NCBI GenBank assembly: GCA_023213315.1
Contig: JAKCPI010014251.1
Location: 1-64,000 of the forward strand
Reading direction: 5' to 3'
Length of the DNA: 64,000 bases
DNA from: Euborellia annulipes
Lineage: Eukaryota > Arthropoda > Insecta > Dermaptera > Anisolabididae
The position numbers and the translations under genes were made by a program. Shown here one piece after another: positions 90 to 63,612 of this stretch (positions are counted from its first letter, which is position 1; each line of letters opens with the position of its first letter). The notes beneath the pieces are model-generated. The model saw only the letters and a list, made by a program, of their open reading frames with translations, made no database searches and was not told where the DNA came from.

Positions 90-296
90 CAGGAATGAAA
101 GTTAGAGAAAACGCAACCAGAATTTTTCTTAAAAAATATATTTCAACAGCTGACGTTTCGGCTTTGGTCAAAGCCATTCTCGGAGCTGTTACTGGTCATC
201 CGAGGATGGCTTTGACCAGGGCCGAAAGGTAAGCTGTTAAAATATATTTTTAAAGAAAAAATTCTGGTTGAGTTTTCTTCTAACTTTCATTCCTGA
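90..296. mobile_element. Foldback element with hammerhead-like cores
   Basis: The two halves are inverted copies of each other: CAGGAATGAAAGTTAGA at the left returns as TCTAACTTTCATTCCTG at the right, with arms of about 90 bp. Each arm carries a hammerhead-like module. On the minus strand (145-190) seven bases on each side (AACAGCT and AGCTGTT) pair perfectly around GAAACGTC, but the CTGANGA box has decayed to CCGAGAA. On the plus strand (200-236) it reads CCGAGGA. The element interrupts an HT copy, so it is younger than that copy. Both motifs look inactivated. Confidence 0.75.
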
Positions 297-9668: not shown

Positions 9669-9802
9669 CCCAAAATGAAATTGTGCTAGGTCTCATGTTT
9701 GGGAAAATTCAGGTACTAGTACTTTACTGGTGTACTTTTTTAGTTTTTTCTAATTTTCTCGAAATTCCTTTTAAAGATTTCTTTCCAATTTTAAATATTT
9801 CT

Positions 9803-10447
9803 TATGTAGGTGAAGAATAAAACGGCAGATGTTGTTATAATTTTTTTATTAGTTAAATCTCTAGGCTATCGATTTCGTCCTTATTGACATCATCAGGCCA
9901 GCTGGAAACAAGATATTTAACATAATTTGACAAGAGTAATATACTATAAAAATTGCACACAAAATTCTTTGGTTAAATATTTTATCACAATAGTAACAAA
10001 CAAAATACATATATTATGAACCATATTCTTTTTTAATTTTTTATATATTTTGAAAAATATTATTTGGAGAGGAAGATGAAGGAAGATGAATTCTAAGAAT
10101 GGCAAGCGCATCAGGATTTTTTATATCTTTGAGATCCTGATGCGCTTGCCATTCTTAGAATTCATCTTCCTTCATCTTCCTCTCCAAATAATATTTTTTC
10201 AAAATATATAAAAAATTAAAAAGAATATGGTTCATAATATATGTATTTTGTTTGTTACTATTGTGATAAAATATTTAACCAAAGAATTTTGTGTGCAATT
10301 TTATAGTATATTACTCTTGTCAAATTATGTTAAATATCTTGTTTCCAGCTGGCCTGATGATGTCAATAAGGACGAAATCGATAGCCTAGAGATTTAACTA
10401 ATAAAAAAATTATAACAACATCTGCCGTTTTATTCTTCACCTACATA
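9803..10447. mobile_element. Near-perfect 645-bp foldback element with hammerhead-like cores
   Basis: Arms of about 315 bp meet at a spacer of about 15 bp near 10,125. TATGTAGGTGAAGAATAAAA at the left returns inverted as TTTTATTCTTCACCTACATA at the right. Mismatches between the arms are few, so the inversion or its maintenance is recent. Each arm holds one hammerhead-like core facing outward: minus strand 9,863-9,900 and plus strand 10,349-10,388. No protein is encoded. It is inserted in repeat B. Confidence 0.85.
10349..10388 (+). ncRNA. Hammerhead-like ribozyme motif (candidate)
   Basis: CTGATGA at 10,354-10,360 is the exact consensus box. It is followed by T, stem II GTC-AATAAG-GAC, and GAAA at 10,374-10,377. 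A-T / A-T then close a two-base-pair stem III over CG, leaving ATA at 10,381-10,383 as the cut site. GGC before and GCC after pair as stem I, and CT/AG extend it past a one-base bulge. All invariant residues of the family are present. The one unpaired T between A9 and stem II is non-canonical. The mirror copy lies at 9,863-9,900 on the minus strand. Confidence 0.55.
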
Positions 10448-11499
10448 ATCATATTAACTGCAGAAATGGAGCAATACATATATCATATTTAAATATTTCC
10501 TATTTCTGGGATAGAAAACAAATTACACTAGGTCTCGTCTTCGGGAAACCTCGAGTACTTTACTGGTGTACTTTTTTAGTATTTTCCAATTTTCTTGCAA
10601 TTCCCTTTAAACTTTTCTTTCAAGTTTTAAATATTTTCTTATTTCTTCTACACAAATAAAATTTGGCTTCTTGAGTACTACTGTAGTACTTTACTGGTGT
10701 ACTTTTTTTTTAGGTTTTTCTAATTTCTTGCAATTCCCTTTAACCTTTTCTTTCAAGTTTTAAATCGTTCCTGGGGCCGGTATAGAAAACAAATTGCACT
10801 AGGTCTCGTCTTCGGAAAACCTCGAGTACTAGTACTTTACTGGTGTACTTTTTTTTTAGTTTTTTCCAATTTTCGTTTTAAAGGTTTTATAATGTTCAAA
10901 GCCTAGTGGGCTTGCTTCCTGGTCAAACCCCCCCTTTTTTTTTCTTTACCCTGGACCCACACATTTAACTCTCCACGAATATTAATTTTAATTAATGCGC
11001 AATTTTGTAAATTTAATTTTTTATATCAATAATTACTTACAATGTATTTAATTTAATAATGTCAAAAAGGCCAATTAGTAGAAAAATACCTATTATTTAA
11101 ATTCTATTATTAAAATACTAATTATTAATTAATTTTATTGAAAATAATAATTTTTAATTGTCTCCAGGCTGACGCATTTCCTGCGCAACTCTCTTACGTA
11201 TATCTCATGATTAAAGCTTTCTTGTGAGGCACTGTCTCCTCTAAGTATCCACTCAGTAATGTTGCTATTCCTCAAAGCTCTCCCTGGACTGTTATTTCTT
11301 ATTTTGGTGTTTTTATTGATGTTTCCATTGAGGAGCAAGTTGTCTCGTTATAATTTCTTTCAAATTTTAAATATTTTCCTATTTCTTCTATACAAATCAA
11401 ATTCGCGCCCCTCGAGTATTCGTACTTTACATTACTTTTTTTAGTTTTTTACAATTTTATAATATAAAAAAGACCGAGCTCCGGCTCGGTCACCCCGGA

Positions 11500-27910: not shown

Positions 27911-28229
27911 TTACTTTCTCTTACCTTTTTTGGGTGGGGGGGGACTTTATATATGTTAATATATATAGAGAGAAAGTATTGGATTCATGTCAAAAATTCG
28001 ATGTCGAGATTTGGACGGATATACACGTTTTGAGGTCCCCTGAATCCAAAAAAGTGGTTTTCACGGCATGGTCTGTCTGTGTGTCTGTGTGTTTATGTGT
28101 GTGTTAGTGAGCAAAATATCTCAAGAATGAAAAGAGTTTGGCGATTGAAATTTTATATTTAAGAAAGGTATCTTCCTGGCACGTGACACGAAGCTTTTGA
28201 ACAAAATCGGCCAAAGAGTACTAATCGAA
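27911..28229 (+). mobile_element. HT element, cut by a foldback element
   Basis: Complete left end with a G-rich insertion (27,940-27,950) and stops in CGGCCAAAGAGTACTAATCG, a few bases before a hammerhead-bearing arm begins. Confidence 0.7.
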
Positions 28230-28415
28230 TTTTGGAGTTTAGGCTTTCACAGTTGTTATCATTAGTAAAAGAATTAGATTTTCGGTTTAACTGTGGTTTA
28301 TTTGTAACGTTTCGGCCACTCATTCTGTGGCCTTCTTCAGGTACAAGCTAAGATTGTAATATATCTTATCTTATCTTATCTTATTATATTAAACGAGCAA
28401 TGTACGTTTATTTGT

Positions 28416-29535
28416 TTGTTTGTTTATATACCAGGTATATGCATATCAGTTCTCGAAAACGGCTCTAACGATTTTTTTCAAATTTATAATATATACTATG
28501 TGCGGTCCAAATATGCAATTGCGCTAGGTCTCATGTTTGGGAAACCTCGAGTACTAGTACCTTACTGGTGTACTTTTTTTAGTTTTTTCCAATTTTCGTT
28601 TTAAAGGTTTTATAATGTTCAAGCCTAGTGGGCTTGCTTCCTGGTCAAATCCTCCCTCTCTTTTACCCCTCTTCACCCACACATTTAACTCTCCACGAAT
28701 ATTAAATTTTAATTAATGCGCAATTTTGTAAATATAATTTTTTATATCAATAATTACTTACAATGTATTTAAATTAATACTGTCGCCCTCGGGGCTTGGT
28801 GTAGGGGTTAGAGTGGTAACCTCGTATACCGAACGTGCGACGAACCCGCGACCGTCGCGGGTTCGGACCCCAGGCAGTCCGATGATTTTATATAAGGCAT
28901 TTGGATACCAAATGGCTTATATAAGAATGCCTGGACCCCTAATATGTATATATTATAATATAACGGATATCGTTTAAAGTCTTAAATGGCCTAAGTTGCC
29001 GCAAAGACTGTGTGAATGTGTGGGTGCATGTGAGTGTGAATGAGAAAAAAGTGTGAATGTTTAAAAAAAAAAAAAAAAAAAAAATTAATAATGTCAACAA
29101 GACCAATTAGTAGAAAAATACCTATTATTTAAATTCTATTATTAAAATACTAATTATTAATTAATTTTATTGAAAATAATAATTTTTAATTGTCTCCAGG
29201 CTGACGCATTTCCTGGGCAACTCTCTTACGTATATCTCATGATTAAAGTTTTCTTATGAGGCACTGTCTCCTCCAAGTATCCACCCAGTAATGTTGCTAT
29301 TCCTCAAAGCTCTCCCTGGACTGTTATTTCTTATTTTGGTGTTTTTATTGATGTTTCCATTGACGAGCAATATTTGTCTCGTTATAATTTCTTTCAAATT
29401 TTAAGTATTTTCCTATTTCTTCTATACAAATCAAATTCGCGCCCCTCGAGTATTCGTACTTTACTGATGTACTTTTTTTTAGTTTTTTACAATTTTATAA
29501 AAAACACACCCGGAACTAATAGATTATTAAAGCTG
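28416..29535 (+). repeat. Repeat B unit, second copy
   Basis: AATATGCAATTGCGCTAGGT, then CGAGTACTAGTACCTTACTG, GCCTAGTGGGCTTGCTTCCT and CAGGCTGACGCATTTCCTGG match 10,480-11,460 in order. It carries the filled version of the SINE-1 site that is empty at 11,050-11,063. Confidence 0.65.
28785..29081 (+). mobile_element. SINE-1, full length, with TSD and empty paralogous site
   Basis: Best reference copy: CCTCGGGGCTTGGTGTAGGG head, B box GGGTTCGGACCCC, body palindrome CATTTGGATACCAAATGGC, GT-rich 3-prime part and an A-tail of about 23. TSD AAATTAATACTGTC / AAATTAATAATGTC (13 of 14). 28,840-28,860 contains a short duplication of the B-box region. Confidence 0.9.
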
Positions 29536-29540
29536 AATTG

Positions 29541-29590
29541 TACCTGAAGAAGGCCACAGAATGAGAGGCCGAAACGTTACAAATAAACCA
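29541..29590 (+). ncRNA. Hammerhead-like ribozyme motif (candidate)
   Basis: CTGAAGA (29,544-29,550), extra A, stem II GGCC ... GGCC, GAAA (29,571-29,574), CGTT. ATTGTA before and TACAAAT after can pair with a one-base offset. The mirror copy is on the minus strand at about 28,296-28,344. Confidence 0.4.
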
Positions 29591-29636
29591 CAGTTAAACA
29601 GAAAATCTAATTCTTTTACTAAAGAGTAAATGTATG

Positions 29637-29875
29637 TGCCCTCGGGCTTGGCGTAGTTGGTAGCGCGTTGTAACAGTTATACCAAGGGTCGAGTGTTTGG
29701 ATACCAGGCAGTCTGATGATTTTTTGGATGTCAAATGGCTTAAATAAGAATGCCTGGACCCCAATATATATATTATTCATAATAACGCTTATCGTATAAA
29801 GTCTTAAATGGCCTAAGTTGACGAAAAGACTGTGTGAATGGGATAAAAGTGTGAGTGTTAAAATAATAATAATAA
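29637..29875 (+). mobile_element. SINE-1 with 10-bp TSD
   Basis: Flanked by TAAATGTATG at 29,627-29,636 and 29,876-29,885. The tail is (AAT)n instead of pure A. Head GCCCTCGGGCTTGGCGTAGT. Confidence 0.85.
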
Positions 29876-29920
29876 TAAATGTATGGTTTGAAAAGAAGAA
29901 ATTATTGGCTGAGTGATAAT

Positions 29921-30348
29921 CAACAGGAACAGGTAGATGAAGGCAGCCAGCAAAGAACAAAAATTTTATTTAAATATCGTCGACGTTTCGGGAACTCGTC
30001 GCTCCCATCTTCAGGACGATAAATTGTTAATGTTGTTTAGATTGATACATATAGGTCATACAAGAGTAAAAGACTGACTCAGTCTTTTACTCTTGGTCAG
30101 TGCTGATGTTTCGGGCCCATTCAACAATAAATTAAGCCCAGGCACCTACTACGATTCTCATAGACAATTAAACATACATTTAATGGTATATGCAGATTTG
30201 TGTTGCAATTTTGTATGACCTATATGTATCAATCTAAACAACATTAACAATTTATCGTCCTGAAGATGGGAGCGACGAGTTCCCGAAACGTCGACGATAT
30301 TTAAATAAAGTTTTTGTTCTTTGCTGGCTGCCTTCATCTACCTGTTCC
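29921..30348. mobile_element. Foldback element with strong hammerhead-like cores
   Basis: Arms of about 140 bp (29,924-30,063 and 30,210-30,350; CAGGAACAGGTAGATGAAGG inverts at the right end). TGATAAT flanks both sides (29,914-29,920 and 30,349-30,355). The centre has a second, perfect small palindrome, AGTAAAAGACTGACTCAGTC onward (30,065-30,091), and a lone TGATGTTTCGGGCCCATT. Cores face outward: minus 29,974-30,022, plus 30,252-30,300. Confidence 0.8.
30252..30300 (+). ncRNA. Hammerhead-like ribozyme motif (best stem I)
   Basis: TATCGTC before and GACGATA after form a perfect 7-bp stem I. Between them stand CTGAAGA (30,260-30,266), one T, stem II GGGA/TCCC, GAAA (30,285-30,288) and CGTC, with the cut expected after C30,292. 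Stem III is the self-complementary ACGT, which has no loop in one molecule but would give four pairs between two molecules. This is the arrangement expected of dimeric hammerheads. Confidence 0.55.
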
Positions 30349-30350
30349 TG

Positions 30351-31063
30351 ATAATACATGTATGTATTTATACTTACTTTTTTTATCGTGTAAATAATCG
30401 CTTGTTGATACAAACACGCACACACGCACAAACCAATTCTTTTTTTTATTCACTTGAATCACCTGGACATGATTTCAGCACATCACACATATACGTTTAG
30501 ATGATATTGTTTGTTGGTCGTTTAAATTACCGGACGCGAGATCACTGTATTGACTCACTCATTCGCTCACTCAGTCACTCACTGGTTGGCTGCCACTGAA
30601 AGACTGAAAGACCTCGGACGGACCTGAATTCCAAACAAAACAGGTATTTAAACATTGGATTGAGTAGCGCTGCCTGGCGGGCAGGTCACTCGACACCGTC
30701 ATCGTCATCCTCTCTCTTTCTCTCTCTCTCCTTCCTCTCTCAATTCCATACTCTTTTTTTTTTAACCTTTTCGGCTACAGAGATTATTAATTTATTTATG
30801 ATAATACCGATTCCTACCGGGGGACGTTCCACACGCTGATTGCTCGGGGTCACCATGAACAAATTAAAAAAAAAAAACCTCTTCCCTGATAAATTGACAA
30901 ATGTCAATATTTACAATCTAAAAGCCAAGGGGAGTTGGGTTCGAACCTCAAAGTTCGACAAATATTTATTTAAATCATTTGGATACCAAATGGAAGAGGC
31001 TCGTGGCTAATTATAGGGGTTTCCTCGAGGAAATGGACCTAACGATTTTCTCACTAATTCTCT
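30351..31063. other. Unique GC-richer block, possible promoter or untranslated exon
   Basis: 30,520-30,730 is unlike the neighbouring repeats: a (TCAC)n-like series, several initiator-like TCAGT sequences, AAACAAAACAG|GTATTTAAAC as a donor-like site on plus, CCAACCA|GTGAGTG on minus, and a (CT)n run at 30,709-30,745. No coding frame. Otherwise nothing recognised. Confidence 0.25.
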
Positions 31064-33800: not shown

Positions 33801-33857
33801 TATATTTTTCAGATATTAACCGAAGATGGTCCCATATGTGACCGAAACGTCGGCCCT
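33801..33857 (+). repeat. Half of a hammerhead-bearing element
   Basis: CCGAAGA (decayed CTGAAGA), T, GGTC ... GACC stem, GAAACGTC. Only one arm exists. A TTAA MITE starts seven bases later and may have replaced the rest. Confidence 0.5.
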
Positions 33858-34622: not shown

Positions 34623-37600
34623 ATGACCTCTTCAGAAAAAGATAGAAAGGTTTCTGATTTATTTGATGATGGTTTTGATTTATATCAAAAAATATGTAAA
34701 TCTGATGAGCCAACCAACAGCGGCAATTTACAGGTGACATCTCCCTCCCTCTTCTCACTTCTTATTTATTAATTTTGGCTTCTCACTTTAATTTATATTT
34801 CAATCTGTTAGTAATTTTATTATTTCATAATTCTATTGATTTGGTTTAATTTTAGAAATGACAAATTGATAAATGCGTAGTTTAAAATAGAAGGAGAAAA
34901 ATCTAAATTTGCAACAATTTTATAAACATTTTAAAATGGGTTTCTAAATCAGAGTTTCCAGAAACATTTGTGTCAAAATAGCATTGGTGTTGAAAAACTT
35001 TTCAAAAAATATGATGGCAAATATATATATATATATATATATATAAAGACCTTGCATGGGGGTTGGGGCCAAAGAGTGAGGCGCTTGTCTCCTGCTGGAA
35101 AATCAGAGTCAAATTTAACGAATAGATCTAATAATAACATAAATTTTAATATTTTTATTCTCATATTCTTGTTCTTTCAAGAGAAACCTTTTCCATCACT
35201 TCCCTTCCTAGGAAAATTTCAATAGGCTCTCACCTACAATAATATTAACACATCAGCATTTGTGATTATTTCATTGCTCTGTTCATTTTTCTATCTAATT
35301 TTTAATATAAATTTTCGTGGTTCAAACGTAAAAGAGCGAAACATCAAAGATTTTCACAATCTTTTTAAAATACATCTTATATTACTTTTTGAAGATTTGA
35401 TTAAAAAAAAAATTATGGTGATGGAGTCAGGAAAATTACAAGACGTTTTCAAATTTCTTTTAAAAAATGTTTCTTTTCGTTTTGCTGTAAGCAGACCACA
35501 AGCTGAATGTTGTTACCACGCCTCCTTTAACGAATATCAAACTTCAGCTATCATTTGTAAAATTGCTCATTGTGACTAATACTCGCGCCTCCCCATAGAC
35601 TAGTCAGTACTTCCCTAGGGAGGTGTTTGGAAAACGCTGGCCTAGTCCTCGGGCCGATTCGTGAGCCGTGAGGGCGAAGGATTTGGATTTTTTGGGATAT
35701 TACTCCTTCTCAGCCATCCGGCCCAGAACCTTCTGCAGATCCCGGCTTACCCTGACTGAGTGTTCCTAATTTTTAAGGCACTTAGGCCACCTCAAAATGG
35801 GCCCTTTGTGTCTGTGAGGTGAGATTTTCTTCCATTTTCCTACCCTAAGAGGAGTCTTCAGCAATGTTTGAATTATTTGCGGCAAGCTGGATTCGAACCC
35901 GTGCCGTGAGGGCGAGAATCTAATTAAAAGAAAATTTGGCTGCAAACGTCTTTAAATATCATCAAATAGAAACAACAAGGCCTTTGTAAACAGGATTATT
36001 TTAGTGTGAACCAGTATTCCAATTAAAATCTCATGCACTTGGTAGATATATTCTTGGTTTAATAAAAAGATGACAATTATAATTTATATATATATATATT
36101 TTCTCTTTATTTCAGAGCGTATAGAGGGTAACAAGTTTGCGCAAAAATCACTTGTTTCGGCAAAATAACGCCTTCATCAGAGCCACATTAACTGCAATAC
36201 AATTACAAATTTTTACAATGATGTATTTTACAAATAGAACAGAATAAATTATTTTACCTCTTCACTAAGTATGTAAAATTTAAACAGAGCCTGCAAGATC
36301 TTGGTTATCACAATTAAAATGAATGAGATATTATAAAATAATTTTCTTTAACCTGTAAGATTAAACATTAATTTAATAAATTTTTTTTACATGTAAAAAT
36401 TTGTAATTGTATTCCAGGTAATGTGACTCTGATGAAGGCGTTATTTCGCCGAAACAAGTGATTTTTGCGCAAACTTGTTAGCCTCTGTACGCTCTGAAAT
36501 AAAGAAATATATATATACCAAGAATGTCTCTACCTGGTGCATGAGATTTTAACTTTGTAAACAGGTAGCGCACAACTTCTGGATCGGTCCGATAGACTTG
36601 AAATTAAAATAAAAGATACGGATTGAAGTAAATTTATTTGTTCAAATGCTTTAAAATGTATTGTTGAAAGTATCAGGAATCAAATAGGTTTAATATCAAA
36701 CACCTGCAAGATTTTAGTCAAATTTTTCTCCTTTTCTCTGCTACACAGATGATGAACTTTCCGATTCGTCCTTAATCAACCATTCTATTCCCAATAAGTA
36801 AAAGATTTATAATTTTTTTTTTCTTCTTTCTTTTTTCAGATGATTGTTAGAAAATCGATAAATCTACTTGAAGATTCAACAAAACTTGTCTCTCTAATAG
36901 GACTTTTTAGTATCAATGAAGATATTGAAGAAATTTCAACAGCTGATCTAAAATTACTTCTTCTCCCAGCTCTATTAGGACAATTAACATTAAAACTTTG
37001 CACTGAAGATCGATTAAATATTATAGAAACAGCTGAGATTTATTTTAAAGATTTTCTTCAAAGATGTAAAGATTATGGAATAACTGATATTGATTTAAGG
37101 AATAATGAGGCTGCAGAAGAGAATTCACAGGATAGTGCAACTGCCCTCGCTCAAATAAATGCTAGGCCTGATCTTATCCGAATGGCCCAAGATAGAAATG
37201 TCAAATTGCAAAGGTAATAAACAGAGTTCATATACTATTGAGAAGATGGGGAAAACCCACTGGGTTTTTTTGGGCTTTTTAATTAATAAAATCCACTGTT
37301 TTTTTTGGGTTTTATTGGGGTTATTCAATGAATGAACATGACTCCGATATATTTATTTCTGAAGAAAAACAAAAAGTGACGCAACCGCTACTACATGAAA
37401 TATCCCACCCAATGCAACATATTCACGGAACACAAGAGAGGCATCGTCCCAGCATCCCTATGCTGTTCAGATCACGACTAACAGAACAAATCAATTTCAT
37501 TCTTCCTTTGTCCCCATGACCTCCCGTGATTGGAACAAGCTCCCTGCGTCTATCTTCCCCAAAACCTACAATCTTCAGACTTTCAAGTCTAACCTCAACA

Positions 37601-37729: not shown

Positions 37730-37760
<31 letters not shown>

Positions 37761-40700
37761 GTCGTAGACAGATCGTGAAATTAGACAGTTCGTGAACTGT
37801 CTAGACATTTCATGAACTGCAGCCAGATCGTGTAATGGTCAAACAGTTACATGATCTGGCTAAAAATTTTAGACAGTTCATGAAATGCAATTGGGCCTTA
37901 GACAGATCGTGTAATGCTCGAGAATTACATGAAATGTCTAAATTTTTTAGGCAGTTCATGAACTGCCTAACAGCAGTTTTGCCGATCGTGTACTGATTGC
38001 AATTTAATGCAATAAATCTAAAAAAAAATTTTATTTTTTCGAAAATCAAAAAAAGGGCTTCTATAAGTTGTAGACATTTTAAATAACTTTAATTTAAAAA
38101 AAAATTGAATTTGTGGCCGCTGGAATCTCCCAAAATTAGAACCCCGAGACGCGCACCTTAACTCAAGATTTACAAAGTGAGGAAGATTTGGAAAATTTAT
38201 TAATCGATAATAATAATAATATTGAAAAAAATTGACTTTTTTCGAGATCTTTATTTGCTTTACAAACAGTACACGATCGGCAAAACTGCTGTTAGGCAGT
38301 TCATGAACTGCCTAAAAAATTTAGATATTTCATGTAATTCTCGAGCATTACACGATCTGTCTAAGGCCCAATTGCATTTCATGAACTGTCTAAAATTTTT
38401 AGCCAGATCATGTAACTGTTTGACCATTACACGATCTGGCTGCAGTTCATGAAATGTCTAGACAGTTCATGAACTGTCTAATTTCACGATCTGTCTACGA
38501 CATATACAGTTCAAGCCATCTATGCAAAAAAACGACATTAATTATCGAACAACCCAATATATTATAAAATACTAATATCGTTAAAAGTCTTATATGGCCT
38601 GAGTGGCCGAGAAGACCGTGTGTATGGGTGTGTGAATGAGAAAAAAGTGTTAGTGTTTTTTCTAAAAAAAAAAAAGGCGAGGGTCCGCCGCAGGCCAGGG
38701 GGGGGAGCCCTCCTGTCTGGACGCCAAACCCGTGCAAGGCGGGCGGCACATTTTCTCATAATTAAGAAAAGGAGAGGGTCAACCGCAGGCGGGCGATCCA
38801 GGGGGGGGAGGCGAAGCCGTCCAAGACGGGCGCCGAAGATAGTTTTTTTAGACTGGAGCAGAAAGCAGAAAAGATAAATCACACCATACAAAAAAAAAAA
38901 AAAAAAAAAAAAAAAAAACGAAAATCCCCAAAAAAAACCCGGGTTTTTTCCAACCCCGATACTATTGGTTTGATACATATGCTTGCTTATTTATTTTTGA
39001 TTCTTCTTTTCCTAGATATAGAGAACAAAAAGCCCTTGAAGAAGAATTAAGTAAATTACGTCAAGTAATTTCAAATTGCCAATGTGACGAAGAAGTAAGA
39101 AGGAATTATTTTCTTAAACTTATAAAATCATTCGTTAATCAATCACTTGATGAACTCCGATCGATAGAAATGGAGAAACCAATTCTAGCACATATGGCCA
39201 AGTATGTTTTTTTTTTTTTTTTGATTTATTTAAATAAATAAATTTAATATACTGCATTAATAGTTTTTCTTTTTTTATACAGAGTTCGGGGTCCAGGAAC
39301 TTTAGGAAGTCAAGAAGTGTCGCGAAATATTGACAAGCCCTTGTTTAAAACTCCTTTGAATGCAGTTATTATAACTAAGGATGAGGTCCAAAAAAGCGTG
39401 TTTGGTGCCGGTTATCCGAGTCTTCCTCGAATGTCAGTGGCGGAATTTTATGAATCACGAGTCCAAGACGGAACGTAAGTCTATTTTATTACCTTAAAGA
39501 TTTGTGACACAAATCCCAAATAACATTCGAATCAAATCCAACAACAAACAACCATTATAAAATTTGTATTTGAGGCTGGGGTACATATATAGTTAAAGAA
39601 CTAGAAGAAATTAAGTATATTGGGACGATTGAGTTGTTTAGCTCTCGATCACCCTGAAAATGACGACCCCAAAGCTCCAGGAAATAGAGGGAAGTAGGGT
39701 GGATATGGCATCACCTAAATGCTTAATTCTTGAGTCCTTATGGCGCGATGTGCCGGTGAATTATCGTGGGGAAGGATCCATTTGAGCTAGATCTGGTCTT
39801 TTTGGCCCCTTCAATACTTCACAATAGTAATTCGCAGTAACAGTACGTTGCTTATCCACCAAACCACGTGATGGTGAGCTAAACAACAAAATTTCGTGTG
39901 TACTCAACTGACTATCAAAAAGGGGCTTCAGGAAGTGTTTTCAATAGTTGATTCAACGCTGGAATTCTATCTTCCGATCGCACAATTCATAAAGTTAGAC
40001 AAATTAAATTGACTTTGCAGCTTCTTCGCCTAAGACGGATGTTCGGTCAAAAAATTATAAAAACGTTGTTTTTATTTTAAATTTAGTTATTATTGGTCAA
40101 CTGCCTCGTACAAGTATCAGTTTCGATGCACATGAGTAGATGTGATTAATTTTTTAATTTTTTGAAAATAAATTTTAAAATTGTGTATTAATAATATATA
40201 TATACTGTATATACAAAATCTGGTGTGACTGGCGCACAGCACACAACTTTCTCTTACCTTCGGTAATCGAAAGTTGTGTTCTGTGCTTGTCACACCAGAT
40301 TTTTGTGTCGACATGTATTTAGTTTTCGACAGTACGGTACATTCGATTTTCAAGATGTAAAATTTATAAGTATGGGAAAATATTTATATTTTGTTACCAT
40401 GGCAACCATTTCTCCTATCTTTTCTATGGAGAACAAGAGTAAAGTGGTCTTCAGAAGATTTCAATCACAAAATAAGAATATACATTTTAAAGAGAATCTA
40501 AAAAATAATTGATTTTTGAATTTAAAAAAAAATCGTTGGAGCAAATTTTGAGAAAATCGAAAAAAACTGAAAAAGTGCATCAGTAAAGTACTAGTACTCT
40601 TTGGTCGATTTTGTTCAAAAGCTTCGTGTCACGTCCCATGGGGGTGCATAACTTAAATATAAAATTTCAACCTCCTAGCTCTTTTCGTTCTTGAGATATT

Positions 40701-41773
40701 TTGTTCACAGACACACACGACAGACACACAGACAGACCATGTCGCGAAAACCACTTTTTTGGATTCAGGGGACCTCAAAACGTGTATATCCATCAAAATC
40801 TCGACATCGAATTTTTGACATGAATCCAATACTTTCTCTCTCTATATATATTAACATATATATAGAGGTAAGAGAAAGTAAAAAAATGCTAATCAAAATG
40901 TAATAAGACAAAGTATTGTATTATTAAATTGTAGGTCCTGAGGATGATGAATGCATCGAAACTGATACTTGTACAAGGCAGTTGATCAATAATAACTAAA
41001 TTTAAAATAAAAACAACGTTTTTATAATTTTTTGACTGAACATCCGTCTTAGGCGAAGAAGCTGCAAAGCCAATCTAATTTGATAAAAACCTCGTCTGAA
41101 TCAGCATATGAAAATTTTAATTTTTTCCACAATTGACATGCAACTCAAAATCAACAACTTTTTGACTTGACAATCATTATTTTCCAAACATAATAAATGT
41201 GTCCAAAAATGACGAATTTCTTTAAACCTCTATATGGACTTGGGCGATCCAAAAATATACTCCTAGACAGGGTCGGCTCTACGTGTGGGCAAAAGATGCG
41301 TCGCATCGGGGCACTTCCGTATAAGGGCGCCATAAACGCAATATTTATCCCCTTGACTCCTTGCCCTCTTGGGTGAGCAAATTCCTGCACTTCAGGGGCG
41401 GAAATTAAATTTTTTCGCACGGCGGAAAAAATTCCGTGATCCTATAAAAAAGGTAAAATGATTTTCATAAGAATTGAAATTCATGTGATTCTGAAGAGAT
41501 ACTCTAGCTGGGATGGTTACATTAATATCTATAAAATTTTGATTTTTTTTTTTTCTTTACAGTTTTAGGAAACCCTCGGCTGTTCAAATCTCTGTTCTGG
41601 CTGATAAAGCGAAAAATATTGAAGAAACAAAATTGAAAGAAGAAGAAGAGATCGCTCATCAAGAGTCGCTCGTTGAACAAGATGACCCCGAGAATTTGGC
41701 CCGAGCAAGAGCCATGGACGAATATAAGGATGAATTCAAAAGAGGATGGGGGAATAGATACAATAGAAGTTAA
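34623..41773 (+). CDS. IGBP1: TAP42/IGBP1 (alpha4) family phosphatase regulator, complete, five exons
   Basis: Exons 34,623-34,733, 36,840-37,213, 39,016-39,201, 39,283-39,474 and 41,563-41,773 (TAA) join in frame to 357 codons; human IGBP1 is about 340. Every junction is GT/AG. The protein belongs to the family that binds the catalytic subunits of PP2A, PP4 and PP6, protects them and acts downstream of TOR. Visible features: the helical N-terminus starting LFDDGFDLYQKI and ending KLQRYREQKALEEEL; the basic phosphatase-contact region; a middle part with YPSLPRMSVAEFYESRV; an acidic/lysine stretch; and the hallmark end ARAMDEYKDEFKRGWGNR. Introns are 2.1 kb, 1.8 kb, 81 bp and 2.1 kb, and three of them are loaded with mobile elements. 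The start was chosen because it gives the family N-terminus and precedes the first conserved helix. Confidence 0.93.
34950..35640. mobile_element. hAT-like relic in intron 1
   Basis: CAGAGTTTCCAGAAAC at 34,951 and GTTTGGAAAACGCTGG ending at 35,640 are imperfect inverted ends of the CAGNGTTTCCAAAC type. Inside are a (TA)n tract and an open frame of about 105 codons (35,262-35,579) with the phrase MESGKLQDVFKFLLKNVS. I cannot assign this frame to a transposase and treat it as relic coding sequence at most. Confidence 0.35.
35678..35902 (-). mobile_element. SINE-4 (tRNA-derived) with 13-bp TSD
   Basis: GCCGTGAGGGCGA occurs at 35,665-35,677 and 35,903-35,915. On minus the element opens with ACGGGTTCGAATCCAGC, a perfect B box, and continues with a body unlike SINE-1 (CACCTCACAGACACAAAGGG, GTAAGCCGGGATCTGCAG). 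The A-box part is missing, so it is 5-prime truncated. Confidence 0.6.
35995..36552. mobile_element. Foldback hammerhead element with 13-bp TSD (IGBP1 intron 1)
   Basis: A 558-bp element flanked by a perfect direct repeat, CTTTGTAAACAGG (35,982-35,994 and 36,553-36,565). Arms of about 160-200 bp are inverted (TTAAAATCTCATGCAC at the left, GTGCATGAGATTTTAA at the right). Both carry the module CTGATGA-A-GGCG ... CGCC-GAAAC (plus 36,424-36,465; minus about 36,140-36,186). The middle (36,230-36,380) is not palindromic. It is the cleanest example that the foldback unit moves as one piece. Confidence 0.85.
36424..36465 (+). ncRNA. Hammerhead-like motif with G at the cut position
   Basis: CTGATGA (36,429-36,435), extra A, stem II GGCG-TTATTT-CGCC, GAAAC, AAGT, G. 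All core bases fit, but the residue at position 17 is G, which is known to block cleavage. Both arms share it, so the source was probably already inactive or uses another register. Confidence 0.4.
37385..37747 (+). pseudogene. 5-prime truncated LINE (CR1/L2/Jockey-like) 3-prime end
   Basis: The reading frame ITTNRTNQFHSSFVPMTSRD, then WNKLPASIFP and FKSNLNRHLL, ending in TGA (37,624), is the typical C-terminal end of CR1- or Jockey-clade reverse-transcriptase proteins (RTxxYxxSFFPRTxxxWNxLP type). It is followed by a 3-prime UTR and a 25-A tail. Upstream sequence shifts frame, so this is a dead fragment. It lies in intron 2 of the IGBP1 gene. Confidence 0.7.
37761..38501. mobile_element. 741-bp palindromic element with 235-bp arms and repeated TCATGA sites
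   Basis: Arms 37,761-37,995 and 38,267-38,501 are almost identical inverses, from GTCGTAGACAGATCGTGAAA to its inverse at the right end. Each arm is packed with variants of GACAGTTCATGAACTGTC: about nine half or full sites (CAGTTCATGAACTG, CAGATCGTGTAATG, ATTACATGAAATG, CCAGATCATGTAAC). The loop holds a TTAA-MITE fragment. ATAT flanks both ends. No transposase. The identical short frames in both arms merely reflect the inversion. Confidence 0.85.
38005..38161 (+). mobile_element. TTAA MITE fragment inside the palindrome loop
   Basis: GCAATTTAATGCAATAAATC to CCCCGAGACGCGCACCTTAA equals the right third of the MITE at 33,864-34,262. The following ACTCAAGATTTACAAAGTGA to 38,266 is of unknown origin. 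Confidence 0.65.
38565..38860 (+). mobile_element. SINE-1 3-prime part fused to Helitron 3-prime ends
   Basis: 38,565-38,672 is SINE-1 from AAAGTCTTATATGGCCTGAG to its A-tail. GGCGAGGGTCCGCCGCAGGC follows, then CTCATAATTAAGAAAAGG and a second GGGTC...CGCAGGCGGGCGATCC. These are two tandem Helitron-like 3-prime ends (the same arrangement as at 32,845-33,438), without a clear CTAG. Confidence 0.5.
39635..39930 (-). pseudogene. mariner-like transposase relic
   Basis: On minus, interrupted frames give FDSQLSTHEI, then VDKQRTVTANYYCEVL, KGPKRPDLAQ and HKDSRIKHLGDAIS. The order and spacing match the mariner catalytic core (FDxxG... TVxxxYYxxVL ... RPxL ... H.N...). Stops and frame breaks show it is dead. 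It lies in intron 4 of the IGBP1 gene. Confidence 0.5.
40000..41085. mobile_element. Foldback hammerhead element split by an HT element (IGBP1 intron 4)
   Basis: Arms 40,001-40,135 (GACTTTGCAGCTTCTTCGCC ... AGTTTCGATGCA) and 40,935-41,080 (TGCATCGAAACT ... GGCGAAGAAGCTGCAAAG) are inverses. The plus-strand core reads CTGAGGA (40,938-40,944), T, GATG-AATG-CATC, GAAAC. The HT element at 40,215-40,884 sits inside and is therefore younger. Confidence 0.75.
40215..40884 (-). mobile_element. HT element, full length
   Basis: Complete hairpin right end (AAAATCTGGTGTGACTGGCG at 40,216) and complete left end (TATAGAGGTAAGAGAAAGTA). It is the only complete HT copy inside either recognised gene. Confidence 0.8.

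Positions 41774-44640: not shown

Positions 44641-63612
<18,972 letters not shown>

Follow-up and report, generated by a model that had tools for sequence, protein, structure and literature searches.

The window analysed here, i.e., the whole stretch of 64,000 nucleotides from Euborellia annulipes, contains gene exons and a number of foldback elements that carry hammerhead-type cores. At 58.9-63.0 kb lie exons of a gene that encodes CID and cwf21 domains and that we take to be U2SURP-like. A TAP42/IGBP1-like gene is represented by two exons (36813-37217 and 38852-39241, plus strand), between which lies an inverted repeat (37756-38506; 270 nt, 95%) that holds no strict core. tRNA-derived SINE-like repeats were seen by eye at ~28790-28905 (in the loop of E2) and at ~29640-29745 (beside E3). 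Here, E1 to E7 designate the elements inside the window, and L-numbers designate the genomic loci of the same assembly with which they were compared; the genome searched comprised 903 Mb in 25,949 contigs. The features of the elements are collected in Table 1.

Table 1. Foldback elements, hammerhead-type cores, tails, and target-site duplications (TSDs) in the 64-kb window.
Feature	Position	Strand	Basis or remark
Plausible decayed core	200-228	+	fuzzy scan
E1 left TSD, TTTAAATATTTC, 12 bp	9790..9801	.	flank reading
E1, solo-pLTR Penelope-like foldback	9802..10487	.	inverted-repeat search; pLTR matches L061
E1 left-arm hammerhead-type core	9873..9896	-	strict scan
E1 right-arm hammerhead-type core	10354..10377	+	strict scan
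E1 tail, 39 nt, right end only	10449..10487	+	same letters precede the frame in L061
Start codon of Penelope-like frame inside E1 tail	10466-10468	+	
E1 right TSD, TTTAAATATTTC	10488..10499	.	
E2 TSD, AAAGAGTA, 8 bp only	28213-28220 and 29621-29628		
E2 foldback	28221..29620	.	other repeats fill the loop; tail on left end
E2 left core	28310..28340	-	strict scan
E2 right core	29544..29574	+	strict scan
E3 TSD	29872-29885 / 30351-30364		13/14 bases match by eye; exact-match script: 7 bp
E3 foldback	29886..30350	.	tail on left end, 29886-29923
E3 left core	29986..30014	-	strict scan
Weak Rfam Hammerhead_1 match in E3	30254-30298	+	
E3 right core, stem I of 7 bp	30260..30288	+	strict scan
Plausible decayed core	33820-33848	+	fuzzy scan
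E4, older foldback	36104..36505	.	cores 36155-36180 (-) and 36429-36454 (+)
E5 core	40938..40961	+	strict scan
E6, old foldback	57506..58076	.	core 57918-57944 (+)
Plausible decayed core of E6	57625-57652	-	fuzzy scan
E7a core, single arm	60677..60701	-	strict scan; partner arm not identified
E7b TSD, TTATTTGTTG	60834-60843 / 60999-61008		tail on right end
E7b foldback, left arm cut short inside core	60844..60998	.	arms and tail by eye
E7b core	60908-60935	+	same core as L109

A strict core was defined as CTGANGA followed by A or T, a stem II of at least 3 bp, and GAAA, where stem II plus loop span 9-26 nt. Twelve such cores occur in the window, and 30 first-order shuffles contained 0.13 on average and never more than 1. 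A fuzzy scan delivered 23 matches; because its noise amounts to 7.2 per shuffled window, these were counted only if they fitted a known family or arm. With 12 strict cores and a few decayed ones, the count of about fifteen modules given by the sequence-only reading is fair, and the stem II pairs that it named (GTC/GAC, GGCC/GGCC, GGCG/CGCC, GATG/CATC, GAATT/AATTC, GGTC/GACC, and GGG/CCC) are present. Its description of GAAA as usually followed by CGTC does not apply to the window, where CGT follows GAAA in E2 and E3 only and the other cores continue with TCGATA, CAAG, CTGA, CTGT, TATA, or TAAA. The core at 10349-10388 consists of CTGATGA-T-GTCaataagGAC-GAAATCGATA and then GCC, with a stem I of 3 bp (by eye), and the NUH triplet is absent from the E4, E5, and E6 families (by eye). 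The proposed arrangement of one core per arm, pointing outward, is mostly found, but its extension to nearly every foldback element was too strong: core-bearing elements account for six rows (five elements) among the 25 longest of 249 inverted repeats (coordinate comparison). In the left arm of E5 (40000-40130), the 5' half of the core is lost. The cores at 60.68 and 60.91 kb are no pair, being members of two different families. Together with a decayed inverted pair (59.84-59.91 and ~60.17-60.25 kb, by eye), these E7a and E7b cores stand among the exons of the CID/cwf21 gene, presumably in its introns. At its inner end, E7a has a short inverted repeat without mismatches (catgtgactcagtcacatg; 60695-60730), which may mark the inner join to a second arm of very small length.

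E1 is composed of two arms whose inner join overlaps by 2 nt; it stops within the first codons of a Penelope-like frame, and its right end bears ATGGAGCAATACATATATCATA. A single tail combined with a TSD fits E1 (12 bp), E2 (8), E3 (13/14), and E7b (10). The near-perfect palindrome of E1 (9949-10302) scores as a miRNA precursor (MIR2118, mir-1252) below the cut-offs, and the Rfam miRNA matches at 10.06-10.19 kb were rejected as being due to this palindrome. Hairpins of this kind could supply small-RNA silencing.

Insertion of endonuclease-bearing Penelope-like elements (PLEs), in many cases as pLTR-only copies, is the best explanation of the foldbacks. L061, which was reached via E1 copies with wide loops, contains an open frame of 866 amino acids without stops, flanked by two direct E1-type pLTRs (self-comparison). 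A truncated copy in inverted orientation is joined to it head-to-head, and both outer ends abut the 10-bp CAGATTGCAA (by eye). The inverted copy of the frame (L061 4206-6432, plus strand) is 99.8% identical to the open one and is split over two reading frames. The protein matches the reverse transcriptase (RT) domain PF00078 above the cut-off (E=8.3e-8, 32.6 bits, cut-off 29.6), and GIY-YIG PF01541 matches weakly (E=6.5e-4, 20.4 bits vs a curated cut-off of 22.6) at the expected C-terminal place. A 47% relative carries the source name GIY-YIG domain-containing, although Pfam returned nothing for it at 0.001; among named relatives, beetle proteins are closest to the PLE frame. Direct pLTRs with an inverted copy (in L061), a one-sided tail, and a short TSD, by which PLEs are recognized, were thus all found. 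Moreover, a core accompanies the PLE frame in 18 of 34 stretches taken around other such frames (17 sense and one antisense, with about ten different cores), where one base is always extra by the stem II register, the scan having allowed three registers. The lone antisense core probably belongs to an adjacent inverted copy. The link to retroelements in the earlier reading was accordingly right, and PLEs are the group that it had named.

The kind of PLE is a known one, because both its pLTR structure (PMC3846280) and hammerheads without helix III (PMC6155905, PMC7761336) have been published. In the parts of these sources covered, rotifer Penelope is described as pLTR-ORF-pLTR with an inverted pLTR, a 31-bp tail on one of them, and an 8-10-bp TSD (PMC3846280). 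Like Penelope of Drosophila, Pen of Adineta vaga, and Poseidon of Anolis, the elements described here have one RT/GIY-YIG frame (GIY-YIG matching weakly in L061), pLTRs in direct and in inverted orientation, a tail on one inverted pLTR (optional and 31-bp in those PLEs), and a TSD. The outward cores, one per arm, are therefore not a new kind of foldback, as the sequence-only reading had supposed, but the inverted-pLTR structure of Penelope-like insertions. Unlike in those PLEs, as far as that account goes, pLTR-only pairs are very many here, TSDs are mostly 12-13 bp (vs 8-10), the tail is near-strictly confined to one end where both ends are readable, and the arm lengths are coupled (PMC3846280). 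The cores resemble the minimal type I hammerheads of PLEs, in the published descriptions covered, in having CUGANGA and GAAA, an open stem I, a hairpin stem II, and an almost absent helix III (PMC6155905, PMC7761336), and they differ by an extra A/U after A9. Metazoan retrozymes are likewise non-autonomous repeats with type I hammerheads; according to the source as covered, theirs are small, tandem, and circularising, whereas inverted pLTR arms with TSDs are found here (PMC7229834). Assignment to the metazoan retrozymes (tandem repeats of 170-400 nt) was therefore rejected, as the arms are inverted and their ends abut TSDs.

Genome-wide, the pattern CTGANGAW N10-30 GAAACGTC gave 49,062 matches in 903 Mb and its reversed-pattern control 17; the pattern itself fixes the GUC triplet in all 49,062 cores counted. 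Across 82 different cores among 100 matches listed, the stem II run had a mean of 3.49 bp, and re-pairing of the 3' halves gave a mean of 1.94 and a maximum of 2.37 in 2000 re-pairings. When the extra base was forced into pairing (canonical register), the mean run fell to 0.16 bp. Matches to CTGANGAWGG...CCGAAACGTC numbered 31,339 with the extra base and 222 without it (controls 0). Stem I, which played no part in selecting the cores, pairs at 42 of 48 positions in 16 families, compared with a shuffle mean of 24.3 and a maximum of 37 (0 of 5000 shuffles equal), and its changes employ C-G, A-T, and T-A. This comparison covers the 16 of 28 clusters with CGT after GAAA, the other 12 having been left out, and since the families are related to one another they are not independent trials. 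Changes on both sides of both stems around a fixed core are as expected of a selected RNA fold. The co-variation of stem II that had been claimed from the window is thereby confirmed by re-pairing, and the claimed selection on a hammerhead-type RNA fold is supported, as stems I and II co-vary between families.

The fit to the hammerhead family is closer in some parts than in others. Stem III consists of the self-complementary ACGT only (in the CGTC families), i.e., a type I stem III was not found; this ACGT could pair between two copies, as is stated for PLE hammerheads in the parts of reviews covered. Minimal type I hammerheads of PLE pLTRs were reportedly described by Cervera & de la Pena in 2014 and by Lunse et al. 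in 2017. One extra A/T is present between A9 and stem II, and hammerhead alignments, in the part of the source covered, allow one or two nucleotides to be inserted beside CUGAnGA (PMC10085705); since such insertions are known, the extra base alone does not exclude membership in the family. Rfam, which the earlier reading had proposed as a check, reported no hammerhead over the whole window, either at the gathering threshold or at E<=5, and a search with L111 alone also gave no hammerhead match. E3 searched alone (81 nt), the best window copy, scored 15.8 bits against RF00163 (cut-off 34), in an alignment that places stem I, CUGA(N)GA, GAAAC, and GUC and lacks loop III. Minimum-free-energy folding was better than in shuffles for E3 (z=-3.4) and L111 (z=-2.6), and no better than in shuffles for E1, E2, and E4.

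Among the matches listed, of which many are single arms, arm pairs are head-to-head in 30 of 30 cases; these represent about 26 loci, C6609/C6610/C24646 and C15847/C15848/C15849 being probable duplicate contigs. TSDs were evaluated in 37 foldbacks, namely 15 of E3, nine of E1, and 13 from the generic core pattern (taken of 17 core pairs less than 700 nt apart among the first 100 matches listed). An exact TSD of at least 9 nt was found in 30 of the 37 and one of at least 11 nt in 28, compared with 4.6% and 1.9%, respectively, of 1449 mis-paired flanks. The length is 12-13 nt in 20 of the 30, and the G+C content is 11%; the TSDs of L053, L055, and L108 are simple sequence. All 30 TSDs abut one arm end directly and lie 18-41 nt farther out on the other arm, although the search would have taken zero offset on both arms.

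Exactly one tail is present in 40 of 41 E3 foldbacks with distinct flanks (automatic rule), or 39 of 40 given that L121 and L122 are alleles; the sole exception, L142, has a tail of ~17 nt on one end. The same holds for 11 of 11 E1 pairs read (of 14 known) and for 10 of 13 generic-pattern loci, the remaining three being unscored. By rule, two arms were recognized in 50 of 84 E3 loci, several of which are one element seen twice. The other 34 have no readable second arm (14 with the tailed arm, 17 with the tail-less arm, and three with no arm recognized), so a two-armed product is not established for all insertions. At least four of these 34 (L034, L116, L145, and L162) have two cores or arms by other evidence; L034 was dropped with them even though two arms, a TSD, and a single tail were seen. 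The remaining loci may lack a second arm, or may have one that has decayed, is very short, or lies beyond the stretch. Left out of the counts were L122 (as an allele), L142 (tail cut short), L003 (stretch stopping short of the right end), L170 (divergence of both arms, ends unreadable), the E1 pairs C21851 and C13059, and L064/L065 (duplicates of L005/L001).

Although near-identical in sequence, the arms of E1 and E3 are cut at differing, mostly unique points, and most foldbacks were therefore formed afresh at each insertion. The inner joins of E1 overlap by up to 8 nt; those of E3, whose inner ends were mapped by anchored extension, lie between -5 and +8 nt in 28 of 31 elements and hold 25-31 nt extra in the other three. 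Eight E3 elements whose inner ends are unexplained by the references (join gap >40 nt) were left out. Five loci (L138, L140, L144, L150, and L166) have the exact E3 core, and the match of their inner ends to the reference breaks off 1-3 nt upstream of that core, which may point to either a second subfamily or exchange at the hammerhead. L129 and L155 occupy different sites and have the same inner junction, one tail base being different; the joins are thus not fully random, and this junction may be either a microhomology hot spot or the result of whole-foldback copying. Of 64 arm ends (32 E3 elements), none is 3 nt or less away from the predicted hammerhead cut, which argues against cleaved RNA as the usual template, in agreement with the cleavage-dead insertion reported for the anole element in the source as covered (PMC11167929). 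Ten of the 64 ends fall 2-6 nt upstream of the core, where a TCGTC/GACGA microhomology (by eye) helps joining. The use of two RNA templates per insertion was also considered and not retained, as it is favored only by L053, whose arms differ at one SNP site that is also polymorphic elsewhere; the arms of L103 are 84-85% alike and old, with no closer relative of either arm that settles the number of templates, and those of L102 come from two subfamilies, with the TSD absent.

The lengths of the two arms are coupled. The tail-less arm reaches farther inside in 22 of 31 E3 elements and the tailed arm in nine, in some by more than 100 nt. A tail-less arm longer by 5-40 nt occurs in 16 of the 31, compared with a re-pairing mean of 5.5 (16 being reached in 0 of 50,000 re-pairings) and with three elements in the mirror class. 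In the first E3 and E1 elements, every small difference in length had been in favor of the tail-less arm, and this was predicted before 54 new loci were examined. Among the 17 usable new elements, the tail-less arm is 5-40 nt longer in eight (re-pairing mean 3.3, P=0.002; mirror class 3), or in seven of 16 without L155 (P=0.004); the sign of the difference alone in the new set (8 vs 3) is not significant.

We consider it likely that the PLE foldbacks arise by priming from both strands of the target, in five steps taken as a whole. The two arms would have been copied separately from PLE transcripts of one kind, as 5'-truncated cDNAs that each turn the RNA-3' side outward, which is why the pLTR hammerhead would lie near each outer end and point out. 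To judge from the TSDs, the RT/GIY-YIG protein would make a staggered cut, usually of 12-13 nt, in AT-rich DNA and leave two 3' ends. Each would prime reverse transcription at an internal position of the RNA shortly downstream of the hammerhead, the two start sites being separated by some 18-41 nt; the upstream site, presumably used on one strand, would give the tail-less end and the downstream site, on the other strand, the tailed end. Two reverse transcriptions would then proceed in tandem, probably on a single shared RNA, the tail-less one leading, and would halt near each other. The outer ends and the coupled arm lengths are the observed parts of these two steps. Subsequently, the cDNA ends would be joined via a few nucleotides of microhomology or a few extra bases, yielding the palindrome, and such joins are observed. 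The hammerhead, as a fold under selection, probably acts in RNA processing or protein binding; that role would not be to make the template end, since the cDNAs do not end at the cleavage site. By arithmetic, both E1 and E3 have their two start sites downstream of the predicted cut, at ~58-65 and 91-104 nt, compared with 85-92 in the anole element (PMC11167929). In the part of that study covered, the anole protein cut and extended both strands in vitro, RNA was used from an internal start at two adjacent sites, matching the tail, the targets were AT-rich, and cleavage-dead RNA inserted equally well (PMC11167929). Reverse transcription primed independently on the two cut strands is consistent with the outer ends, the TSDs, and these in vitro results. 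Against it stand the 34 of 84 E3 loci in which the rule recognized no second arm, the GIY-YIG match below its cut-off, and the nine of 31 E3 elements with a longer tailed arm. The coupling suggests that a single RNA is copied by two reverse transcriptions in tandem, of which that begun at the upstream (tail-less) site leads; the same pattern would arise if the tailed cDNA were always trimmed during joining. The rule of one start site per strand rests on genomes, since the anole enzyme, in the account covered, shows no strand difference in vitro (PMC11167929). A more specific proposal is coordinated two-strand target-primed reverse transcription, in which each two-armed insertion would use both start sites, one per strand, tandem reverse transcriptions would run on one RNA with the tail-less one ahead by about a polymerase footprint, and the foldback would be the normal short product of a plain mRNA beginning in the pLTR; we put this forward tentatively, at slightly less than an even chance.

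Two other origins of the foldbacks have to be weighed. Self-priming, in which an antisense PLE transcript or cDNA folds back and one arm templates the other, is the explanation preferred by Arkhipova et al. 2013 in the part of their paper covered (PMC3846280), and it would account for palindromic inner joins with short loops and for near-identical arms. The tail is present on one arm only and absent from the arm that would have been its template, so the tailed arm was not copied from the other. Furthermore, self-priming expects the same arm to be longer both outside and inside, and the tail-less arm is the longer one inside in most E3 elements (16 vs 3 at 5-40 nt), an argument that does not touch the nine elements with the tailed arm longer inside. 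The single TSD that directly borders the two outer ends in 30 of 37 foldbacks also speaks against self-priming, which we regard as rather improbable. It is very improbable that these are foldback DNA transposons (FB/MITE-like) that a transposase moves whole and that bear a ribozyme-like motif by chance. Long inverted repeats and TSDs are what such elements would show, but the outer ends are asymmetric, the motif lies in pLTRs beside RT/GIY-YIG frames, and no fixed junction recurs across sites in E1 and E3 apart from the one common to L129 and L155. Because the inner joins differ while the arms are nearly identical, foldback units are not as a rule copied whole.

For the core itself, it is possible, though on balance doubtful, that the stem-loop is a protein-binding signal for the PLE reverse transcriptase and its likeness to a hammerhead a relic. 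The reduced stem III, the extra base at the A9/stem II junction, the families without an NUH triplet, and the absence of E3 arm ends at the cleavage site would all fit, as would the anole hammerhead, which in the account covered cleaves only with its protein and whose cleavage-dead RNA still inserts (PMC11167929). On the other hand, GUC-bearing cores are abundant (GUC being set by the pattern) and stem I co-varies, one- or two-nucleotide insertions near CUGAnGA are known (PMC10085705), the anole hammerhead does cleave, and dimeric cleavage of small PLE variants has reportedly been described (Lunse et al. 2017).

As underlined by these cores, one genome can carry ~49,000 cores of hammerhead type, in a form not reported by Rfam for the stretches searched. 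For PLE integration, the structural account (self-priming) and the biochemistry of 2024 (both strands extended) stand unreconciled in the literature covered, in which the near-strict one-tail rule and the coupled arm lengths have no precedent and are thus new here. The foldbacks of this genome are many recorded products of the reaction and help to separate self-priming from both-strand models, with the prediction that one start site is used per strand and that two polymerases work in tandem.
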